The notes below the pieces were generated by a model. The model was not told the DNA's origin, ran no database searches, and saw only the letters and a list, made by a program, of their open reading frames with translations. Below are positions 52,602 to 64,000 of a stretch of DNA of 64,000 nt, in pieces. Positions within the stretch are counted from its first letter, which is position 1. Each line of letters begins with the position of its first letter. Origin of the DNA: Naasia aerilata (lineage in GTDB: Bacteria > Actinomycetota > Actinomycetes > Actinomycetales > Microbacteriaceae); assembly GCF_030296595.1 (NCBI RefSeq), contig NZ_AP027731.1, positions 1,302,001 to 1,366,000 of the forward strand, read 5' to 3'. A program made the translations under genes and the position numbers.

Positions 52602-52783
52602 GCGTCGACTCCAATTGCGGCCCAGCACTCGCTTTTCGGGCATTCGCCGCCTAGGTTGGTCCGCGGCCCTCCTCGAGAGGGCAGAGAATTTGCCCGCACC
52701 GGCGCCTCTGAGCCGGCCGACAGAGACTTGGCGACTTGCCCTCAGCTTTCCCCTCCGACGTCCGCGCCCCGGAAGCCGCTCCG

Positions 52784-53593
52784 GTGACCCGCAAGGAACT
52801 GCGCCGACAGGAGACTCTCGAACTCGCGCCCGCCCGCGGCCCCCGCCGCAGCCGACAGGGCGCCAGTGTCCGTCCCGAGCCCCGCCGCCGCTCGCTGCTG
52901 TCACGACTCGCCCGGCCGCTGTTCACGATGACGACCATGGCCGCCGTCGCCGGAATGGCGTTCGTCACCTCGGTGCCGGCCAACGCACTCCTCCGCGTCG
53001 ACGACGTGGCGGCGCTGCAGAGCCACTCGTCCAGCGACTCGGGTCAGGTACTCGCCATGTCGACCGCGGGCTCTGCGGACATCGTGCGGGACGGCTACGA
53101 CGTCCGCACTGCCGCCCAGAACGCCTTCGCTCCGGAGTTCAGCAAGGTCGAGAGCTTCGCGAACAACACCGAGACGGCCGTCCGCTGGCCCTTCGACGGC
53201 CCCGTCCGCGTCTCCGACGGATTCGGCCCGCGCGTCTCGCCGTGCTCCGGCTGCTCCTCGTTCCACCTGGGCACCGACTTCCTGCCCGGTTACGGCAATC
53301 CCGTGTACGCCATGGCCGACGGGGTCGTGACGAGCATCGGCACCGAGGGCGGCCTCGGCGTGCACGCCGTGATCGACCACCTCATCGACGGACAGCTGGT
53401 GACCACGACCTCCGCACACATGCAGAGCGGCTCCGTCCAGGTCTCCGTCGGCCAGGCGGTGCGCGCAGGGGATGTCATCGGGCTCGTTGGCAACACCGGG
53501 GACTCCACCGGGCCGCACCTGCACTTCGAGCTGCGGCTCGGCGGCGCGGAGCCGGTCGACCCGAACGCCTGGCTGCAGGCGCACGTCCGCTGA
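52784..53593 (+). CDS. M23 family metallopeptidase, paralogue 1
   Basis: About 269 residues from GTG 52784 (VTRKELRRQE; GGAAG upstream); an in-frame TTG at 52736 is possible. It has a basic N-terminus, one TM segment (FTMTTMAAVAGMAFVTSVPA), a linker, then a LytM/M23 domain: GFGPRVSPCSGCSSFHLGTD (zinc His and Asp) and STGPHLHFELRLGG (HxH). It should cut peptidoglycan cross-links outside the membrane. A C-x-x-C pair stands just before the first zinc His. Confidence 0.9.
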   Translation: MTRKELRRQETLELAPARGPRRSRQGASVRPEPRRRSLLSRLARPLFTMTTMAAVAGMAFVTSVPANALLRVDDVAALQSHSSSDSGQVLAMSTAGSADIVRDGYDVRTAAQNAFAPEFSKVESFANNTETAVRWPFDGPVRVSDGFGPRVSPCSGCSSFHLGTDFLPGYGNPVYAMADGVVTSIGTEGGLGVHAVIDHLIDGQLVTTTSAHMQSGSVQVSVGQAVRAGDVIGLVGNTGDSTGPHLHFELRLGGAEPVDPNAWLQAHVR

Positions 53594-53706
53594 TCCGCGG
53601 AACGCCTGGCTCACGGTCGCTTTCCGACTCGCCTGGCAGGCTGCTCGTCCCCCGAATGGGGCTCCCTTAGCCTGACGACGTCAGCGAACCGGGAGCGAGC
53701 AGCCGA

Positions 53707-54510
53707 ATGCAGTCCAGCCGACGGGCTCTTCTCCGCAGTGAGCGCTCGCTCGAGGCCGCCCTCTACCAGTCGCCCGCCCCGGGCACGGCGCCGCAGCAGA
53801 GCCGGCCCACCCGCCGCGCCCTGCGCAGCCTGTTCACGATGGTGTTCGTCGCCGCCGTCACGGTGGTGACGACGATCCCCATCAACTCCCTCCTGACGCC
53901 CGCCGACCTCGCCGAGGCGTACGCGCCCACGATCACGGTCGCCTCCGTGCAGCCGCAGCAGCTGAGCGCGATCAGCGGCGGCGCGGACGTGCCGATCAGC
54001 CGCGACCAGTACACGGTCACCTCGCTCCGCGCCAAGCTCGCGGTCGTCAGCGCGGGCCGAGCAGCGGCCTTCTACAACGACTCCTCCTGGACGGTGCAGT
54101 GGCCGTTCGCGTGGGGCGTGCCCATGTCGGACCAGTTCGGGCCGCGCGTGCTCTGCGACACGTGCGGCGTGACCATGCACCGTGGCGTCGACTTCCTTCC
54201 CGGCCGGGGTGCGCCGATCCAGTCGATCGCGGCGGGTGTGGTGCGCTACGTCGAGGAGTCCGACGACGGCCTGGGCGTGCACGTCATCGTCGACCACCGG
54301 ATCAACGGCGAGCTGGTCTCGTCCGTCTACTGCCACATGGAGCACGGCTCGGTGGCCGTCGCCGTCGGCCAGGAGGTCCGCACGGGTCAGCTGATCGGCA
54401 CAGTGGGCGACACCGGCTTCGCCTTCGGGCCGCACCTGCACTTCGAGATCCGGCTGAACGGCACCGAGAACGTGGATCCCGTGGCGTGGCTCACCGAGAA
54501 CGCGCACTGA
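53707..54510 (+). CDS. M23 family metallopeptidase, paralogue 2
   Basis: 267 residues, same layout as the preceding gene. It has a TM segment (LFTMVFVAAVTVVTTIPINS) and an M23 domain, QFGPRVLCDTCGVTMHRGVD and FAFGPHLHFEIRLNG, again with C-x-x-C before the zinc His. It is preceded by CGGGAGCG. Linkers differ strongly, so the duplication is not recent. Either may be a septal or envelope hydrolase. Confidence 0.9.
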   Translation: MQSSRRALLRSERSLEAALYQSPAPGTAPQQSRPTRRALRSLFTMVFVAAVTVVTTIPINSLLTPADLAEAYAPTITVASVQPQQLSAISGGADVPISRDQYTVTSLRAKLAVVSAGRAAAFYNDSSWTVQWPFAWGVPMSDQFGPRVLCDTCGVTMHRGVDFLPGRGAPIQSIAAGVVRYVEESDDGLGVHVIVDHRINGELVSSVYCHMEHGSVAVAVGQEVRTGQLIGTVGDTGFAFGPHLHFEIRLNGTENVDPVAWLTENAH

Positions 54511-54522
54511 CGGCGCACGAGA

Positions 54523-56291
54523 TCAGTCGGTCGTCAGCCAGACCGTCGTGTCGGTGGGCAGCGCCGCTTCGCTGAGGGCCTCGCTGGAGACGAGGACGCT
54601 GCCGACGGGCAGTTCGACGGGCGTCGTGCCGAGGTTCGCGATCACGGTCACGCCGCGGTTGCGGAAAGCCACGACGTCGTCGGCGTACCCGGGAAGCCAC
54701 TCGATGGCTCCGGTGCCGAGCGCCTGCTCGCGGCGCATGGCGAGGGCGAGGCGGTACAGCTCGAGCGTGGAGCCGGGCCGGCCCTGCTCGCTGTCGCGGG
54801 CGAACTCCGCCCAGTCCGAAGGCTGGGGCAGCCAGCTCTCGCCGGTCGTATTGAAGCCGTAGGCCGGTGCGGCCGCCTCCCAGGGGATGGGGACCCGGCA
54901 GCCGTCGCGGCCGTAGCGCTCTCCGCCGGTTCGCCGCCAGGTGGGGTCCTGCCGCGCCGAGTCCGGGAGATCGATCACCTCGGGCAGCCCCAGCTCCTCG
55001 CCCTGGTAGATGTAGGCGCTGCCCGGCAGCGCGAGCATGAGGGTCGTCGCCGCGCGGGCCCGGCGGAGTCCGAGCTCGGGGACCGGCTGCCCTTCGCTCT
55101 TCGGCCCGATGCCGGCGCCCTGAGGGTTCTCCGCGGTGAGGGCCAGCCGGCTGGCGTGCCGGACCACGTCGTGGTTCGAGAGCACCCAGGTGCTGGGGGC
55201 CCCGACCCGGCCGAACTCGGTGATCGACCCGTCGATCACGAGGCGCAGCGCGGCGGCCTGCCAGGGGCCTCGAGGTAGGTGAAGTTGAACGCCTGGTTCA
55301 TCTCGTCGGGACGGACCCACTCGGCGAGCTTCCGGAGCGGGTCGACCCACGCCTCGGCCACCAGGATGCGGTCGCCGCCGCTTCCCTCGGCCGAATACTC
55401 GTCCAGCAGCCGCCGCCATTCGCGGAAGATCTCGTGCACGCCCTCCTGGGCCCAGTAGGGCGGCCGGTCGACGTCGTCGTCCGCCACGGCCTCGATCTGG
55501 GGAGCGAGAGGGACGCCCGCGCCGCCCATCGAGCCGCCCGTGTTCTCCGAGCGGTCCCAGTCCGGCAGTCCCTCCGCCTTTACGAGCCCGTGCGCGACAT
55601 CGACGCGGAACCCGTCGACGCCGCGATCCAGCCAGAAGCGGAGGATGCCGAGGAACTGCTCGTGCACCCAGGGGTTGGTCCAGTCGAGGTCCGGCTGGCT
55701 CTGGTCGAACAGGTGCAGGTACCACTGGCCGGGCGTCCCGTCCGCGTTGGTCACGCGCGTCCAGGCGATCCCGCCGAAGACGGACTTCCAGTTGTTGGGC
55801 GGCAGGTCGCCGGTCGGGCCCTTGCCGTCGCGAAAGAGGTAGCGCGCCCGCTCGGGGCTGCCCTCGGGGGCGGCCAGCGCCTCCTGGAACCAGCGGTGGT
55901 CGCTCGAGGTGTGGTTCGGCACCAGGTCGACGAGAACCTTGAGGCCCCGGTCGTGGGCGGAGACGAGCAGGTGGTCGAAGTCGTCGAGGGTGCCGAACAG
56001 CGGATCGACGTCGCAGTAGTCGGCGACGTCGTAGCCCGCATCGTGCTGCGGCGAGCGGTAGAAGGGGGACAGCCAGACGGCGTCGATCCCCAGCTCGACG
56101 AGCGAGTCGAGATGGCTCGCGATCCCGGCCAGGTCACCGATGCCGTCTCCGCTGCTGTCGGCGAAGGAGCGCGGGTAGATCTGGTAGATGACGGCGGACC
56201 GCCACCACTCGTCGGCGTGACCGGTGGCGGTCGGAAGGACGTCCGGCTCGCTCTCGGGCGTCTCGGGATTGGGGGTCGCGGCGATCGTCAC
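54523..56291 (-). CDS. GH13 alpha-glucosidase / alpha-amylase family, frameshifted
   Basis: About 589 residues. (beta/alpha)8 signature regions: AVIYQIYPRSFADSSGDGIG, VDLVPNHTS (region I), GFRVDVAHGL (nucleophile Asp), ILVAEAWVDP (acid/base Glu) and VLSNHDVVRH (region IV). GDGIGDLAGI is typical of oligo-1,6- or alpha-glucosidases. One C added to the run at 55264-55267 restores TYLEAPWQAAALRLVIDGSI. No signal peptide, so cytosolic. The GTG start lies 6 nt after TAGGGT (56303..56298). Confidence 0.92.
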
Positions 56292-56395
56292 CCCAGCACC
56301 CTATGACGCCCCTGCTGGGGTCGCATTCGCTTGCGTGCGAGGTGCTAACCTCTTACGGTGCCTGAGGCGGGGGCGCGCAGTTTCCGCCTCGAAGC

Positions 56396-56467
56396 GCCCC
56401 GATAGCTCAGTGGTAGAGCATCTCCATGGTAAGGAGAAGGTCCTCAGTTCAATCCTGAGTCGGGGCT
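56396..56467 (+). tRNA. tRNA-Thr (GGT)
   Basis: Acceptor GCCCCGA/TCGGGGC; D-arm AGCTCAGTGGTAGAGC; anticodon stem TCTCC-ATGGTAA-GGAGA with anticodon GGT; T-arm CTCAG-TTCAATC-CTGAG. Discriminator T; no encoded CCA. Confidence 0.94.
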
Positions 56468-56511
56468 CGAACTCCACAGGCTCCGCTCCCGGGCGGACGA
56501 CGTGGAGCTGC

Positions 56512-56585
56512 GGCGGGGTAGCTCAGGTGGTTAGAGCACACGGCTCATAATCGTGGTGTCGCGGGTTCAAGTCCCGCCCCCGCTA
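56512..56585 (+). tRNA. tRNA-Met (CAT), elongator type
   Basis: Acceptor GGCGGGG/CCCCGCT with a G-T first pair; anticodon stem CACGG-CTCATAA-TCGTG with anticodon CAT; T-arm GCGGG-TTCAAGT-CCCGC. The paired first position indicates an elongator, not an initiator. An isoleucine tRNA with modified C34 cannot be fully excluded. The 17 nt 56567-56583 recur at 56687-56703. Confidence 0.92.
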
Positions 56586-56624
56586 CCCAACAAAAACGGC
56601 CCCTCTGGGGCCTTTTTTGTTGGG
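56586..56624 (+). terminator. Terminator of the tRNA-Thr/tRNA-Met unit
   Basis: CCCAACAAAAACGGCCCC and its near-perfect complement surround a TCT loop, with a run of T in the 3' arm. It begins immediately after the tRNA-Met discriminator. Confidence 0.88.
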
Positions 56625-56661
56625 CACCGGGGGCTGGGCGCGAAATATCGCCCCGGTGGGC

Positions 56662-56813
56662 CCCTGGCGCATGCTTGCGCCAGGGATCAAGTCCCGCCCC
56701 CGCGTCCCGCCCCGGCGTCCCGCCCCGGCGTCCACCTCGCTCAGCGCGTCCCGCCCCGGCGTCCCGCCCCGGCGTCCACCTCGCTCAGCGCGTCCCGCCC
56801 CGCCTCGCTCAGC
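56662..56813. repeat. Hairpin plus 44-bp tandem repeats ending in the XRE gene
   Basis: CCCTGGCGCA/TGCGCCAGGG (56662-56671, 56676-56685) is a perfect stem. It is followed by a second copy of the tRNA-Met 3' end (56687-56703). Then come two 42-bp units (56702-56743, 56746-56787) and a shortened third (56790-56813), each built on GCGTCCCGCCCCGG and ending CCTCGCTCA. On the reverse strand each unit reads TGAGCGAGG; the third provides the XRE stop codon. Confidence 0.75.
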
Positions 56814-57393
56814 GCGACCCGCTCCAGGCGGCCGGCACGATCACCCACAGCACTTCGCTGACCGCGGTGGTGGCGTTGACCCAGGTGTGCGGCTGCCGGC
56901 CGGCGAACGTCAGGGTGTCGCCCGCGGCCAGCTCGACGCTCCGCTCCGGGAAGCGCAGGGTCACGCCGCCACTGAGGACATGGAGCGCCTCCACCTCGCA
57001 GGCGATCGTGTAGAAGTCGTCACCGCCGGAGGATCCGGGTTCCAGCACGGATCGCAGGAGCTGCACACCCGCCTCGGACCGGGGCGTCAGCAGCCGCTCT
57101 TCCACCAACGAGCCGCCGAAGTTGATGAGCGGCGCCTCCGCCAGGTGCACGACCTGGCTGTCGGGCGGTTCGAAGAGCGACCCGATGGGCAGGGAGAGGA
57201 CCTGGCACACGGCCCGAAGGGTTGCGACGCTCGGCGACGTCTCGTCGCGCTCAAGGCGGCTGACGAAGCCCTTGCTCAGCCCGGTGGCCTCCGCCAGCTG
57301 AGCGATGGTGAGACCCTGCGCGATCCGGGTGGTCCGCAGCTTGGGGCCGATCGGGAAGGGGCCGGCCTCGGGCGCCGGATGCACTGTTCGCAT
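56809..57393 (-). CDS. XRE family regulator with cupin sensor domain
   Basis: 194 residues. N-terminal HTH_3: LRTTRIAQGLTIAQLAEATG, LSKGFVSRLERDETSPSVAT. C-terminal cupin: EVEALHVLSGGVTLRFPERS, LAAGDTLTFAGRQPHTWVNA. This is the common one-component regulator of small-molecule catabolism. TACACT (57406..57401) lies 7 nt before ATG 57393. It is divergent from the ureohydrolase operon, whose promoter has a GTTGTC-N5-GACAAC site likely bound by this protein. Confidence 0.9.
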   Translation of the reverse strand: MRTVHPAPEAGPFPIGPKLRTTRIAQGLTIAQLAEATGLSKGFVSRLERDETSPSVATLRAVCQVLSLPIGSLFEPPDSQVVHLAEAPLINFGGSLVEERLLTPRSEAGVQLLRSVLEPGSSGGDDFYTIACEVEALHVLSGGVTLRFPERSVELAAGDTLTFAGRQPHTWVNATTAVSEVLWVIVPAAWSGSR

Positions 57394-57449
57394 GGCCCCG
57401 AGTGTAGGTGGGCCGCGCGTGCGGGATTGTGCCCCAGTGGGCATCGAAC

Positions 57450-57479
57450 GTTGTCTCTTGGACAACTCGGGGGTAGTGT
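57450..57479 (+). promoter_or_regulatory. Promoter and operator of the ureohydrolase operon
   Basis: GTTGTC (57450-57455) and GACAAC (57461-57466) form an inverted repeat. TTGTCT (57451-57456) as -35 and TAGTGT (57474-57479) as -10 are 17 nt apart, so a protein on the repeat would cover the -35 box. Confidence 0.6.
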
Positions 57480-57513
57480 GCGTCGCGAATCGTTCCCCAC
57501 CTAGGAGGTCATC

Positions 57514-58449
57514 GTGCCGATCGGTCCTCGGGACTCGAGTCGCACCCCGCGCTATGCGGGGATCGCGACGTTCGCGCTTCTGCCGCGGCTGGAGGAGGTC
57601 GACCGGGCCGACATCGCGGTCGTCGGCGTCCCGTTCGACAGCGGCGTCAGCTATCGGCCGGGCGCGCGCTTCGGCCCGGCGCACGTCCGCGAGTCATCCC
57701 GCCTGCTGCGTCCCTACAACCATGTGCAGGACGTCTCCCCGTTCGCCGAGCTCCAGGTCGCGGATGCCGGCGACATCGCCGTGAACCCGTTCAGCATCGA
57801 GGACGCCGTCCGGGAGATCGAGGAGCGAGCGGACGCCCTCTCCGCGGGTGGCACGCGGCTGCTGACGATCGGCGGCGACCACACGATCGCCCTTCCGCTG
57901 CTGCGCAGCGTCGCGAAGAGGCACGGGCCGGTCGCGGTCGTGCACTTCGATGCGCACCTCGACACCTGGGACACCTACTTCGACGCCCCGGTCACCCACG
58001 GCACGCCCTTCCGCCGCGCGTCGGAGGAGGGGCTCATCGACCTGACCGCGAGCCTGCACGTCGGCATCCGCGGGCCGCTCTACGGCCGCGAGGACCTCGC
58101 CGACGACGCCCGGCTCGGGTTCGCGATCCTCGGCTCGCACGACGTCGAGCGGCACGGGATGGCCGCTGCGCTGGAGCGCATGCACGCCCGCCTCGGCGAT
58201 CGGCCGGTGTACGTATCCGTCGACATCGACGTGCTGGACCCGGCGCATGCGCCCGGCACGGGCACCCCTGAGGCCGGGGGCCTCACGAGCCGCGAGCTGC
58301 TGGAGTTCCTCCGCGGGCTCCGGGAGCACCGCATCGTCGGCGCGGACGTCGTGGAGGTCGCGCCCGCCTACGACCATGCGCAGCTGACCGGCATCGCCGC
58401 CTCGCACGTCGCCTACGAGCTGCTGACCTCCATGGTTCCGCGGTCCTGA
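57514..58449 (+). CDS. Ureohydrolase (agmatinase/guanidinobutyrase/arginase family)
   Basis: 311 residues. The binuclear Mn site is complete: [23 protein letters not shown], and [20 protein letters not shown]. It hydrolyses a guanidino compound to urea and an amine. The exact substrate cannot be read from these motifs; agmatine is the default name for the group. GTG 57514 has AGGAGG 7 nt upstream. First gene of a four-gene operon with amidase, NCS1 permease and nitrilase. Confidence 0.88.
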
Positions 58450-58462
58450 TCCGCGCCCCTCC

Positions 58463-59865
58463 ATGACGACGACGTCTCCCCTTCCTCCCCCGGCATGCTG
58501 CGCCGGCTCTCCGCCGACGTCCGGCACGGCCGCACGACGGCGCGCGAGCTGGTCGAGCGATCCCTTGAGCGGATCGAGGCGAACCGCGACCTGAACGCGG
58601 TGGTCGCCGAGCGCTCCGACGAGGCGCGCGCCGAGGCGGACGCGATCGACGCGGCGGTCGCCGGACGGGACGACCCCGGGCCGCTCGCGGGCCTGCCAGT
58701 GCTCGCGAAGGACAACGACGACGTCCGGGGAATGCGGACGACGCACGGGTCCCGCTGGTTCGCCGATGCGCCGGCGGCGTCCCGGGATGGCGTCTCGATC
58801 GAGCGGCTGCGCGCGGCCGGGGCGATCGTCGTCGGCAAGACCAATGTCCCCGAGTTCTGCATCGAGGGCTACACCGACAATCTCCTCTTCGGGGCCACGC
58901 GCAACCCATGGGACCTGGGGCGCTCGCCCGGAGGATCGAGCGGCGGCTCCGCCGCGGCCCTCGCGGCCGGGCTCTCGGCGATCGCGACGGGCACGGACGG
59001 CGGCGGATCCATCCGCATCCCGGCCGCCTTCTGCGGTCTGCTCGGCTACAAGCCCACCAACGGCGTGATCGGCCGACGCTCGGCGCCGGACTGGATCGAC
59101 TTCTCGACCGACGGGATCATGGCGACGAGCGCCGACGATGTGCGGCTGCTGCTCACCGTCCTCGCCGGGCCGGTCGACGGCGACCCGACCGCGCTGCCGA
59201 CCCCGCTTCCGCCATCCGCGCTGCCCACCCGGCTGATCGTCGCCGAGCGGACCGACGATCTCGGCCCCCTTCCCGCCGAGGTCGCCGACGCGTTCGCCGC
59301 GAGCGCGGCGCAGCTGGCAGAACTCCTCGGTGTGCCGGTCGAGCACCGCATCCCCGAGTCGTTCTTTCCCGACTGGAGTCCGGACGAGGACTGGTTCGTC
59401 CTCGCGACGGCCGAGCACGCCTCGGCGTTCGGCCGGGAGCGCATCGAGCGCGACGCCGAGCTGCTGCATCCGAGCGCGCGCGAGTTCCTGCTGGAGGGGC
59501 TCACCGTGTCGGCGGCGGACTACCTCGCGGCCCGCCGCCGCCGCTTCGACGCGATCGCCCGCCTCGACGAGCTCCTCGCGGGCGGCGCCGCGCTCGTGAC
59601 GCCCACGGTCGCCGAGCTCGGCTGGGCTCCGGACGGGGGACGAGCCGGGCTCATCGGCGCCGAGGCCTACTCGACAGCGATCCAGAACATGACCGGCCTC
59701 CCGGCGATCTCCCTGCCCGCCCCGCTCGGCCCGGACGGCATGCCGTTCGGCCTGCAGGTGACCATGCCGCGCTGGGCGGACCTCGGGCTGCTCGAGGTCG
59801 CCGCACGCTGGGAGGCCGCCTACCCCTGGCCCCGGACGGCGCCAGGGTATCCGGAGTTCGGATGA
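58463..59865 (+). CDS. Amidase (amidase signature family), possible N-terminal frameshift
   Basis: Ser-cisSer-Lys amidase of about 467 residues. [18 protein letters not shown] has the catalytic Lys; [16 protein letters not shown] the cis-Ser; [16 protein letters not shown] the nucleophile Ser. It hydrolyses an amide to acid and ammonia. An uninterrupted frame begins only at ATG 58495; this start lacks a ribosome site and the usual first residues. ATG 58463 joins if one C is added to the run at 58487-58491. Confidence 0.85.
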
Positions 59866-59931
59866 CGGCCTCCCACCAGGGGGCCGGCCCTGCCTCTTTC
59901 CCGAGTTCACGTCCACCACCCCGAGGAGCAC

Positions 59932-61376
59932 ATGATGTCCCACGCCCCCAGCCCGGCGCCGCCGCCGGACCGGTGATCGAGCGGCACTCGATCGACTACG
60001 TCCCCTGGTCGGAGCGCCGGGGCAAGCTGTGGCACCAGGCGCCGTTCTGGTTCACCGGCAACTTCGTCCTGCCGACGATGGTCATCGGGTTCCTCGGCCC
60101 CGAGCTGGGGCTCTCTGCAGGGTTCTCGTTCCTCGCCATCGTGCTGGGCGCCTGCTTCGGCACCTTCTTCATGGCGTTCCACGCGAACCAGGGTCCGCGC
60201 ATGGGTTTGCCGCAGATGATCCAGTCGCGGGCGCAGTTCGGCAGCCGCGGCGTGATCGTCCCCTTCATCGCGACGGTCTTCGTCTACATCGGGTTCATGG
60301 TGTTCGATGTGATCCTGGCCACCCAGGGACTCGGGCTCGTCCTCCCCGCCAACAAGTGGTTCTGGTACCCGGTCCTCACCGCCCTGTCGATCGTGATCGC
60401 CGTCGTCGGCCACGACCTCCTGCACTTCGTGCAGCGCTGGCTGACCTACCTCCTGATCCTCGCGTTCGCGATCACGACCGTCCTCGCGTTCACGACCCTG
60501 CCCGCTCCGGCCCCCGCGGACGCGGGCGGGTTCGACGGCACCGCGTTCCTCATCCAGTTCTCGCTCGCCGCGGGCTACAACATCAGCTACGCCGTCTACG
60601 TGTCCGACTACTCCCGCTACCTGCCCGCGAAGTCGTCCGCGCCGAAGCTCATCTTCTACACGTACCTGGGCGCGGCCGGGTCTGCGGTCTGGCTCATGGG
60701 CCTCGGCTCGCTGCTCGCCAGCCGGCTCCCGGAGGTCGACGCGATCGGCTCGATCAAGCAGGTGGGCGACAGCCTGTTCCCCGGCTTCGGGACCATCGTG
60801 GTGCTGATCTCGACGCTCGCCCTCATCTCGATCATGGGGGTCAACGCCTATGGCGCCATGCTGACGAGCGTCAGCGGCGTCGACGCGTTCAAGAAGGTCC
60901 GTGGCGGCGTGCGGACGCGCGTCATCGGCCTCGTCATCGTCGGGCTCATCACGGTGCTCGCCGCACTGCTCATTCCGGACGACTACCTCGGCAGCTTCAA
61001 CAACTTCGTCCTGCTGATGCTCTACTTCCTCGTCCCATGGACGGCCGTGAACCTCGTCGACTTCTACGCGGTCCGGCACGGCAAGTACGCGATCACGGAG
61101 ATCTTCAACCCGGACGGCATCTACAAGAAGTGGTCGTGGCGGGGCCTGGTGGCCTACAGCGTGGGCTTCCTCGTGATGATCCCCTTCTTCTCCCTTCCCG
61201 GCCTCTACACGGGCCCCATCGCGGAGGCCATCGGCGGCGCCGACATCTCGTTCGCCATCGGCCTCGTCGTCGCGGGCGGGCTGTACTGGATCTTCGCTCG
61301 AGGCCTCGACAGCAGGGCCGAGGAGGAGGCGCGCCGCCGCAGCCAGCGCGAGCTCGAGGGAGTCGACTTCGAGTGA
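59932..61376 (+). CDS. NCS1 family nucleobase/amide permease, frameshifted near start
   Basis: About 481 residues, 12 hydrophobic segments. WHQAPFWFTGNFVLPTMVIG, NQGPRMGLPQMIQSRAQFGS and NISYAVYVSDYSRYLPAKSS are the NCS1 (cytosine/purine/hydantoin permease) landmarks. It should import a nitrogen compound for this cluster. ATG 59932 has GAGGAGC directly upstream but is out of frame; one C added to the run at 59945-59949 joins it to QPGAAAGPVIERHSIDYVPW. GTG 59973 is the fallback start. Confidence 0.88.
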
Positions 61377-62346
61377 GCCGGATCCAGCGCGGCCGCCGCA
61401 CGGTCGCCATCGTCCAGCGTCCGCCCGTTCTGCTCGACCTTGCGGCGACGCTCGATCGCGCCGTCGAGGCCATCGAGGAAGCGGCCGACGCGGACCTCGT
61501 CGTGTTCCCTGAGACCTGGGTGACGGGCTACCCGGCGTGGGTGTTCGGCATGGCCGGATGGGGCGACCCGGAGGGCCGCCGCTGGTACGGACGCCTGCTC
61601 CGGGAGAGCCCTGTCGTCGGGGGCGCCGACGACAGTGACGACGACCTCGCCCCGGTGCGCGCCGCAGCCCGACGTGCGGGCACCACGGTCGTGCTCGGCA
61701 TCAACGAGCGGAGCGGGGGCACCCTCTACAACAGCCTCGCCACCGTGGGTCCGGACGGTCGGCTGCTGAACCTGCACCGCAAGCTCGTGCCGACCCACAC
61801 CGAGCGGATCGTCTGGGCGCAGGGCGACGGGGCGGGCCTGCGCGCGGTCGACACACCGGCGGGGAGGGTCGGCGGGCTCGTGTGCTGGGAGCACTGGATG
61901 CCCCTGGCGCGGCAGGCGCTGCACTCGGAGGGCGAGCAGATCCACGTCGCGGCGTGGCCGGACATGCCGGAGCTGCACGAGCTCGCCGCCCGCACCTACG
62001 CGCGCGAGGGGGCTGCTTCGTCGTCTCCGCCGCCGCCTTCGTCACGACGGATGACCTCCCGACCGAGCTGCGGGACGCCTACCGCGCGGGTGTCGGTCCG
62101 GAGGCGCCCACCGACGGGATCCTGTTCGACGGAGGCTCGTCGATCGCCGGCCCGGACGGCGGCTGGCTCGTCGAGCCGGTGCGCGGCGTGCCCCGGCTCA
62201 TCGTCGCGGAGCTGGATCTCGACGCGGCGGACGAGGCGCACGCCGAGCTGGATGTCGCCGGTCACTACAGCCGACCCGACGTGCTGACGCTGCGCATCGA
62301 CACCCGGCGTCGCACCGGCGTCGAGCGGGGCGTGGAGCTGCCCTGA
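61373..62346 (+). CDS. Nitrilase / carbon-nitrogen hydrolase, frameshifted
   Basis: About 324 residues. Catalytic triad: Glu in [12 protein letters not shown], Lys in [16 protein letters not shown], Cys in [17 protein letters not shown]. The CWEHW context is that of true nitrilases rather than amidases. It would convert a nitrile to acid and ammonia. One G added to the run at 62008-62012 restores [20 protein letters not shown]. The GTG start overlaps the permease stop by GTGA, so it is translationally coupled. Confidence 0.9.
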
Positions 62347-62432
62347 ACCGACAGCCCTGAGCGGCTTCTGCGAGCCCGCCGGCGTGCGTCGGCGGCGTGC
62401 GGCGGCAGGAGTAGCCTCAAGACGAGGGTCCG

Positions 62433-62540
62433 ATGGCACGGCCGGCAGGGCCTCCCTCCCGGCAAAAGGATCGCCCCGTGACGCCTTCTCGACACCTTCG
62501 GCCCTCGGGCTCCCGCTCCGGAACGCCGACCGGCCGATGA
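62433..62540 (+). CDS. Possible upstream ORF coupled to kup
   Basis: ATG 62433 opens 35 codons ([20 protein letters not shown], then [15 protein letters not shown]) whose TGA overlaps the kup ATG as ATGA. TAGCCT at 62412-62417 is a possible -10 box. The peptide has no family match and may be an accident of GC-rich sequence. The remaining leader (62347-62432) holds no gene. Confidence 0.25.
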
Positions 62541-64000
62541 GCCCACGTGCCGAGGATGGGGACGCCGCCGCGACCCACGTCGAGGAGTCCGCCGATCCCG
62601 AATCGCCCGATCCCGCTGCCGCGGAGCCGACCGGGAGTGCAGAGCCGGACGAGGCCGGGCACCCGGCTCCCCGGGCGCGGGGACTCGCGCGCGGTGTCGC
62701 AGGCGCCGGTCTCGCCGCCCTGGGCGTCGTGTTCGGCGACATCGGAACGAGCCCGCTGTACGCCCTGAAGACGGTGTTCACGATCGACGGCGGCATCGTG
62801 ACGCCGTCGGCGGCCGACGTCTACGGGGTCGTGTCGCTCATGTTCTGGAGCATCACGATCATCGTGTCGATCAAGTACGTCACCGTGCTCATGCGCGCCG
62901 ACAACGACGGCGAGGGGGCGTGATGGCGCTGGCCGCACTCGCGCAGCGCCTCTACAAGCACCGCGCCCGCCGCACGGGGTTCCTCCTCCTCATCGGCATC
63001 ATCGGGGTCGCGCTCTTCTACGGCGACTCCATCATCACGCCGGCGGTGAGCGTGCTCTCGGCGGTCGAGGGGCTGCAGGTCGCCGCTCCCGGAGTCGCCC
63101 ACCTCACGGTGCTGATCGCGGCCGTCATCCTCACGGCGCTCTTCGCCGTCCAGCGGTTCGGCACCGGGCCGGTCGGCAAGCTGTTCGGTCCCGTCATGCT
63201 GCTCTGGTTCGCGGTCCTCGCGCTCGCCGGGCTCGTCATGGTCGTGCAGCACCCGTCCGTGCTGCAGGGCCTGTCTCCGACTTGGGCGGTCGTCTTCGTC
63301 GTGGCGCATCCCGGGATCGCGTTCATCGCCATGGGCGCGGTGGTGCTCGTCATCACCGGCGCCGAGGCGCTGTACGCCGACATGGGGCACTTCGGCCGAT
63401 CGCCGATCCGCCGGGCCTGGTTCTTCGTGGTGTTCCCGGCCCTCACGCTCAACTACCTCGGCCAGGCCTCGCTCGTGCTGCACGACCCGAAGGCCAGGAG
63501 CGACCCGTTCCTCCTGCTCTTCCCGGATTTCCTGAGGCTGCCTGTCGTGATCCTGGCGACGGTCGCCACGATCATCGCCAGCCAGGCCGTCATCACGGGG
63601 GCCTTCTCCCTGTCTCGCCAGGCGGTGCAGCTGGGGCTGCTGCCGCCCTCACGGTGCGCCAGACGTCGAAGCACGAGAGCGGCCAGATCTACCTTCCGGT
63701 GGTGAACACGCTGCTGTTCCTCGGCGTCCTCGCGGTCATGCTGACCTTCGGGTCCTCCGCGGCACTCGCGACGGCCTACGGCGTGTCCGTGACCGGCGCG
63801 CTCGTGGTCGACACCGTGCTCCTGCTGGTGGTCGCTCCGGTGCTCTGGGGGTCGCGGCCCTGGCAGGAGGTGCTCGCGGCCATCGCCTTCGGGGGCTCGA
63901 GCTCACCTTCCTGTCGGGCAACCTCTCCAAGGTCCTGCACGGGGGCTGGGTCCCCCTCCTTCTCGCGGCAGTCATCATCCTCGTCATGGCGACGTGGCGT
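62537..64000 (+). CDS. kup: Kup/KUP potassium uptake protein (partial, three frameshifts)
   Basis: Inner-membrane K+/H+ symporter. A long Ala/Glu/Pro-rich N-terminus leads into [20 protein letters not shown], the Kup hallmark. Then come [73 protein letters not shown]. Breaks occur in the runs at 62914-62918 (restores [13 protein letters not shown]), 63646-63648 (restores [15 protein letters not shown]) and 63891-63895 (restores [20 protein letters not shown]); each needs one base. The C-terminus lies beyond the window. It is a second K+ system besides Trk at 24-26 kb. Confidence 0.92.

Follow-up and report, generated by a model that had tools for sequence, protein, structure and literature searches.

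A rare operon built around a 4-guanidinobutyrase-type ureohydrolase, with a conserved predicted operator, in Naasia aerilata

An operon-like set of four genes with a divergent regulator

We analysed a stretch of 64,000 nucleotides of the Naasia aerilata genome (contig NZ_AP027731.1, positions 1,302,001 to 1,366,000), here called the window, in which an XRE-cupin regulator gene faces genes for a ureohydrolase, an amidase, an NCS1-type permease and a nitrilase. Co-conservation and tests of a shared operator illustrate that the regulator and the four genes are a real, operon-like set and more than a chance assembly. The operon elaborates, in a rare way, on a locus of 4-guanidinobutyrase type that is itself widespread; the types of part are known and their combination is rare. 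With regard to function, we place about even confidence in a scavenging operon that is induced by its substrate and would handle omega-guanidino compounds, mainly 4-guanidinobutyrate with its amide and possibly the nitrile. Coordinates are those of the window unless another locus is named.

An earlier note on this DNA, made from the letters alone, had described four genes with a divergent XRE-cupin regulator, and this was borne out by the open reading frames (ORFs) and their Pfam matches. The regulator (HTH_3 and Cupin_2 domains, 194 aa) occupies 56809..57393 on the reverse strand, counted from its ATG. On the forward strand lie the ureohydrolase (57514..58449; 311 aa, a GTG start with AGGAGG upstream; PF00491, 320.6 bits), which is most likely a 4-guanidinobutyrase, an amidase-signature (AS) family amidase (58495..59865; 456 aa; PF01425, 285.7 bits), the NCS1-type permease (about 59862..61376; PF02133, 181.8 bits) and the nitrilase, which starts at 61373. 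The start of the permease is uncertain: the amidase stop codon overlaps an in-frame ATG at 59862, and a second ATG, at 59932, follows a better ribosome site yet does not share the frame of the rest. The GTGA that had been proposed to couple the permease and nitrilase genes was located at 61373-61376.

The ureohydrolase and its neighbours

The ureohydrolase falls in the same subfamily as GbuA (3nio) and GpuA (3nip) of Pseudomonas aeruginosa, with a nearly full-length match, and differs from them in its neighbouring genes and regulator. Among its solved relatives the guanidinobutyrase 3nio scores 269 bits, the guanidinopropionase 3nip 262 bits and the proclavaminate amidinohydrolase 1gq6 240 bits, compared with 229 bits for the best entry named agmatinase (4dz4), about 201 bits for 7lol/7lba and 173 bits for 7esr/7oi1, a 'probable agmatinase 2' that we take to be a guanidine hydrolase; the metformin hydrolase subunits score 78 and 67 bits. 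Residues H123, D146, H148, D150, D237 and D239 are invariant in 10 of 10 aligned clade relatives, window included, and the GGDH, DAHxD and DxD motifs presumably provide the ligands of two metals. The motif behind the DxHxD ligands reads TWDTYF in 84 of 91 clade members and TWQTYF in one, the search pattern being unmatched in six. By ureohydrolase identity the nearest relatives, among the matches listed, come from a metagenome-assembled genome (MAG; 82%), Cryobacterium and Homoserinimonas (77%) and Agromyces (75-76%).

We looked at the surroundings of 88 ureohydrolase loci, which are mostly the best 80 of at least 586 relatives. A thiamine pyrophosphate (TPP) enzyme is encoded within 1.5 kb of the ureohydrolase in 38 of the 88, and 37 of these 38 neighbours are hit by NF005712, the model of 5-guanidino-2-oxopentanoate decarboxylase, at E<=1e-60. 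Where neighbours were scored singly against the cut-off of that model (500 bits), those of L004 (517.7 bits) and L063 (505.7 bits) pass, and those of L039 (498.6 bits) and L024 (478.1 bits) lie no more than 22 bits under it. The clade is widespread in actinobacteria and in many loci adjoins 2-ketoarginine decarboxylase-like genes; because such genes so often adjoin, the clade most likely turns 4-guanidinobutyrate into 4-aminobutyrate (GABA) and urea, 4-guanidinobutyrase being the likeliest assignment. In the arginine transaminase route the 2-ketoarginine decarboxylase AruI is followed by a guanidinobutyrase. The clade resembles that route in adjoining AruI-like genes in many loci, whereas the operon described here comes with a permease and with amide and nitrile hydrolases, in a genome where AruI does not exceed the model cut-off. 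The idea that the whole might represent new biochemistry is not supported, since the ureohydrolase clade adjoins genes of known arginine and 4-guanidinobutyrate catabolism.

Conservation of the gene set

The congener G273 (locus L090) holds the regulator, ureohydrolase, amidase, permease and nitrilase in the same order, with identities of 92% for the ureohydrolase, 87% for the permease, 80% for the regulator, 75-76% for the amidase and, for the nitrilase, 84% in the N-terminal and 77% in the C-terminal piece. It is the only one of eight other genomes of the genus to have the amidase together with the remaining set. Regulator, ureohydrolase, permease and nitrilase were also found in genome G145 (L092), without this amidase, and on an 8.4-kb MAG contig (L003) on which the amidase is not present, and the overlap of permease and nitrilase is seen again in L003 and L090. 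The exact four-gene set is rare, being present in two genomes, with two more carrying the set without the amidase-signature amidase. In relatives the position of the amidase is either taken by a carbon-nitrogen (CN) hydrolase or empty, and these varied partners indicate that the amide-hydrolase slot is filled by at least two unrelated families. The same four-gene neighbourhood, for which a search in other genomes had been suggested, was found in one other genome, G273, the amidase being the exchangeable part; co-conservation of the genes as such holds more broadly, in the full set of G273, in G145 and L003 without the amidase and in the permease neighbourhoods described below. An orphan amidase of 59-60% identity lies in G301 (L091 7664-9040) beside tRNA-Ile/Ala genes, and the rest of the set is not nearby.

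Of 299 family genomes, four carry the nitrilase at E<=1e-50: G273, G145, G009 and the present one. Searched as a whole at E<=1e-70, it matched one of 394 class genomes drawn, namely this genome; G273 and G145 are missing from that result presumably because they were not drawn. The permease was searched in 394 and 396 genomes, in overlapping draws, and with a limit of E<=1e-120 this brought up 18 loci in addition to the window. Counting genes up to 4 kb from the permease, five of these loci have a ureohydrolase, four an amidase-signature amidase and four a CN hydrolase, with at least one of the three in 9 of 18; as a rough expectation, one ureohydrolase gene per genome would give well below one such neighbour among 18. 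Outside the draw, permease, ureohydrolase and CN hydrolase occur together in L016 (Streptomyces), L092 (G145) and L159 (an Embleya replicon).

A second arrangement, which is not always complete, was seen in L007, L009 and others (Agromyces, Cryobacterium) and comprises the regulator, the ureohydrolase, a SnoaL-like protein, a distant NCS1 permease and a PF04199 cyclase. In L155 (607-1299) a permease homologue is followed directly by a Peptidase_C26 gene like gamma-glutamyl-GABA hydrolase (76.7/266 bits), which hints at a GABA-type substrate. In L164 (Azoarcus pAZKH) a permease homologue of 42% identity stands with an aldehyde dehydrogenase, a choline-dehydrogenase-like enzyme, a porin and an agmatinase of 37% identity, and this looks like another guanidino-compound cluster.

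Regulator and operator

The regulator is PuuR-like, yet scores 60.6 bits against a cut-off of 211 for the PuuR model, and in related loci its homologues are divergent from the ureohydrolase or the permease gene. Between regulator and ureohydrolase, at 57450..57466, lies the inverted repeat GTTGTCTCTTGGACAAC (GTTGTC-N5-GACAAC), the site that had been read over the promoter, and a pair of hexamers, TTGTCT/TAGTGT, with a spacing of 17 bp can be read across it by eye. In order to examine its conservation we took 22 divergent regulator pairs and removed 6 that repeated a locus, which left 16 intergenic regions, window included. The pattern GTTK-N9-MAAC is present in 12 of the 16, whereas 1000 dinucleotide shuffles gave 0.117 on average and never more than 2. 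This comparison is optimistic because the pattern was chosen after the sequences had been viewed. It is missing from L016, L141, L092 and L156, with near copies visible by eye in L016 and L092, and the exact hexamer palindrome is not kept in the relatives tested.

Behind the repeat follow TAGTGT in the window (7 bp), TAGCGT in L090 (7 bp) and TAGGGT in L003 (8 bp), and the other nine repeat-bearing regions do not show this. A hexamer 7-8 bp past the repeat would suit a -10 box and would place the operator on the -35, and we regard the palindrome over the -35 as a conserved predicted operator. The form GTTGNC-N5-GNCAAC occurs at three places in the whole genome, one of which is the operon promoter.

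Proposed function and its alternatives

In the proposed scavenging operon the XRE-cupin protein would bind the inverted repeat of 17 bp that covers the -35, and would presumably repress transcription until the compound arrives. The NCS1-type permease would import a guanidino compound, the amidase, or the CN hydrolase in relatives, would convert an amide end to a carboxylate and free ammonia, the nitrilase, in four known loci, would do the same with a nitrile end, and the ureohydrolase would cleave the resulting guanidino acid to urea and GABA. This order of steps is conjectural, as is the placing of nitrile and amide in one compound series; stepwise release through the guanidino, nitrile and amide bonds of a single compound, as the earlier note had imagined, is possible.

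That 4-guanidinobutyramide may be a substrate is suggested by the amide hydrolase adjoining the ureohydrolase. This amide is a precursor of azalomycin in Streptomyces, where arginine monooxygenase yields 4-guanidinobutyramide and a hydrolase then yields 4-guanidinobutyrate, and S. lividans with the azalomycin cluster used the amide when it was added to the medium (PMC5082578). The amidase described here could perform the step from amide to acid, as in that route; unlike here, where a ureohydrolase and a permease are present, the acid in the azalomycin producer goes to the CoA form (PMC5082578). Import is favoured because AruI remains under its cut-off, leaving an internal arginine route unsupported. 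The permease itself scores below the cut-off of the TIGR00800 ncs1 model (121.1 against 353.1 bits) and has no match among Protein Data Bank sequences at 1e-3.

An NCS1 protein, MetT, imports metformin, and its gene adjoins a ureohydrolase gene in the cluster metTR1ABCaCb, which shares with our operon a permease, a ureohydrolase, a regulator and a guanidino-type compound, the permeases being likened by description (PMC13390362). This parallel would favour degradation of metformin, guanylurea or free guanidine. That cluster, however, has two ureohydrolase subunits and nickel genes (PMC13390362), whereas the operon has a single ureohydrolase together with an amidase and a nitrilase, and there are no nickel-insertion genes among its proteins. 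The ureohydrolase is also far closer to GbuA than to 7esr/7oi1 or the metformin hydrolase subunits, and no guanidine riboswitch was found: a search for structured RNAs in 55000-64000 placed only two tRNAs above the gathering score, and one match to a different family stayed below threshold. We consider this explanation highly improbable.

The points that weigh against the proposed function concern the ureohydrolase, the way the genes travel, the nitrilase and the fate of the products. The ureohydrolase passes the agmatinase models TIGR01230 (238.9 bits, cut-off 174.3) and NF002564. The TIGR01230 model reaches wider ureohydrolases. A general acetolactate synthase model fits 37 of the 38 TPP neighbours as well, single scoring covered 7 of the 38, and among these L043 (358.7 bits) and L056 (317.8 bits) stay far under the NF005712 cut-off, as does L031, which falls short of E 1e-90. 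Were the enzyme an agmatinase, the operon would serve agmatine use, with amide hydrolases acting on N-carbamoylputrescine or N-acyl-agmatines. AguB, which is nitrilase-like, and the unrelated AguY both hydrolyse N-carbamoylputrescine, and Tse8 is there derived from AguY (PMC12283126); a Tse8 structure, 6te4, is among the solved relatives of our amidase. The passed models agree with agmatine use; guanidino-acid hydrolases outscore every entry named agmatinase, and the operon proteins include no agmatine deiminase or decarboxylase, which makes this reading very unlikely in our view. For the proposed scavenging of guanidino compounds, AguB and AguY may instead offer a precedent, by analogy, for the exchange of amide hydrolases.

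Chain length is a further difficulty. Tyr155 of the ureohydrolase aligns with Met161 of GbuA and Tyr157 of GpuA, which are substrate-recognition residues, and the guanidinobutyrase of A. niger has Tyr218 there (PMC10833137); Trp152 stands where GbuA and GpuA both have Asn. Since Tyr is found in both the guanidinopropionase and the A. niger guanidinobutyrase, Tyr155 leaves the chain length undecided. A C3 version of the pathway, in which 3-guanidinopropionate and the beta-alanine precursors ureidopropionate and aminopropionitrile would all lead to beta-alanine, could draw on the alignment with Tyr157 and on the beta-ureidopropionases among the solved relatives of the CN hydrolase found in related loci. 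We judge it unlikely: AruI-like neighbours indicate a C4 acid, and Tyr is no mark of the shorter substrate given the A. niger enzyme (PMC10833137).

With regard to the company of the genes, 9 of the 18 permease loci have no partner within 4 kb, the nitrilase of G009 stands alone without the other operon genes in a clade that is rare, and the modules are found apart in many genomes. Of eight plasmid permease neighbourhoods fetched, from 376 records matching, only two contain a ureohydrolase (L159, and L164 at 37% identity); all of the partners are missing from L160, L161, L162, L163, L165 and L166, the permease being alone in L160. Plasmid relatives of the nitrilase (at most 51% identity) have no ureohydrolase or NCS1 permease in the two annotated ones of three neighbourhoods fetched. 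Such scatter would suit a loose nitrogen-scavenging cassette, in which each enzyme acts on its own compound (a guanidino acid, a short amide, a nitrile) under a common regulator and nitrogen purpose and without a linear pathway. The permease with a CN hydrolase and no ureohydrolase in L141 and L153, the ureohydrolase without this permease in most of the best 80 of at least 586 loci, the orphan amidase of G301 and the lone nitrilase of G009 are all in keeping with it. In M. smegmatis, likened here by description, nitrogen limitation raises cytosine/purine-type permeases, agmatinase, formamidases and a nitrilase from mostly scattered loci, although a permease and a formamidase carry the consecutive locus numbers 3402 and 3403 (PMC4617892). 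The same three functions nevertheless keep co-occurring in varied orders and with varied regulators, two unrelated amide hydrolases occupy one slot and the permease-nitrilase overlap recurs, and we hold the loose cassette to be a real but minority possibility.

The nitrilase expected at the end of the operon was confirmed by its family match and is not one open frame. Its N-terminal two thirds lie at 61373..62010 (forward strand; PF00795, 119.4 bits, the match stopping near 62010), and a C-terminal piece of about the last 110 residues lies in another frame at 62005..62346 on the same strand, with no Pfam match; the homologue from L003 aligns with 61382-62011 and, in a different frame, with 62008-62310. 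The gene is whole in the relatives L003 and L092. The expected Glu, Lys and Cys, presumably the residues of the catalytic motif, are present in the N-terminal piece, and the whole L003 homologue scores 175 bits with NitA 6zby and 168 bits with 3wuy, resembling these true nitrilases in score and residues while remaining under the cut-off of the Nit6803 model TIGR04048 (208.2 against 502.6 bits). Judged by its solved relatives it is a true nitrilase. The frame break is likely an indel error of the assembly and not decay, because neighbouring genes also lie split: the GH13 gene upstream is broken at about 55,265 and whole in 7 of 7 congeners examined, genes near 65,840 and 72,140, outside the window, are likewise split here (six congeners compared for each), and a kup-type gene downstream is in two frames with a break at about 62920. 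The assembly is indel-rich; the overall count of splits, 29 of 46 queries, includes paralogue matches and read-through ORFs and is not a rate.

As to the products and the starting compounds, a search of full-text literature returned no paper on guanidinobutyronitrile. AruI reaches at best 295.3 bits in this genome (G000) against a cut-off of 500, and none of four genomes passes. Urease, tried as the next step, was set aside: its alpha subunit has no match in this indel-rich assembly and none of the four genomes is over the cut-off. Urea carboxylase is likewise not over the cut-off in this assembly, whereas G273 has a full one, and use of urea as a nitrogen source in this genome is doubtful.

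Insertion behind tRNA-Met

The operon follows tRNA-Thr (56396-56468) and tRNA-Met (56512-56587), a pair that all eight congeners also have, preceded by the GH13 gene. In none of the eight do the five operon proteins or kup occur within the 13 kb fetched at the tRNA site. In L116 the match to our sequence ends at 56621 and restarts 100 bp on at 64870, and in L114 it ends at 56703 and restarts 151 bp on at 65147; these flank matches give an insert of about 8.2-8.4 kb with the operon and kup, whose left edge lies at 56621-56703, whose right edge, at 64870-65147, is outside the window, and whose part within it is 56703..64000. Different DNA lies between the flanks in L115, L117, L118 and L121, L119 is rearranged and L120 has no right-flank match. 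The site behind tRNA-Met is a variable insertion site, and acquisition of the operon and kup as an insert, which the nearby tRNA genes and repeats had led the earlier note to propose, is supported. In G273 the operon sits elsewhere and not behind the tRNA-Thr/Met pair.

The kup-type K+ transporter (62537..63702, forward strand, in pieces) belongs to the same insert, has no match at all in the eight other genomes of the genus and is probably not a member of the pathway. A 17-mer from the 3' end of tRNA-Met at 56567 recurs at 56687 and is followed by a GC-rich 44-bp tandem repeat (56701-56802; the repeat region spans 56687-56822). Integration by this repeat was considered and rejected, because the congener L114 holds a similar second copy without the operon and the second copy therefore seems older than the insert. 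GC content does not mark the insert either (71.5% over 56704-64000, 71.6% to the left of 56390), and no integrase was noticed among the insert ORFs, not all of which were scanned by profile. In G273 a large serine recombinase (Resolvase and Recombinase domains; L090 15267-16727) lies about 3.2 kb from the operon and is a possible vehicle. Further upstream in the window, two adjacent M23 peptidase genes (52736-54507) have homologues at the same place in congeners. The genome is a single contig of 3.39 Mb with an estimated completeness of 90.6%.

Discussion

No described pathway with exactly this set was found in the full-text literature searched, in which subscription journals are little covered, in agreement with what had been supposed when the operon was first noticed. 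The nearest described system was the metformin cluster with MetT and its pair of ureohydrolase subunits (PMC13390362). Taken at its widest, the comparison would make the permease clade an importer specialised in omega-guanidino acids, amides and nitriles. The operon would then be a complete linear route from guanidino-nitrile or amide through the guanidino acid to urea and GABA, under one conserved XRE-cupin operator, in which two or three unrelated families (AS amidase, CN hydrolase, perhaps also the PF04199 cyclase) had each come independently to supply the amide step. In this full form we find the proposal speculative and rather unlikely.

For an NCS1 permease clade that is so far uncharacterised, and for many actinobacterial genes labelled agmatinase by models, the analysis offers a concrete substrate proposal. 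It also defines a predicted operator for the regulators of these loci. If the scavenging function is true, some Actinobacteria would take arginine breakdown products from their surroundings, with non-homologous amide hydrolases exchanged within one kind of operon.

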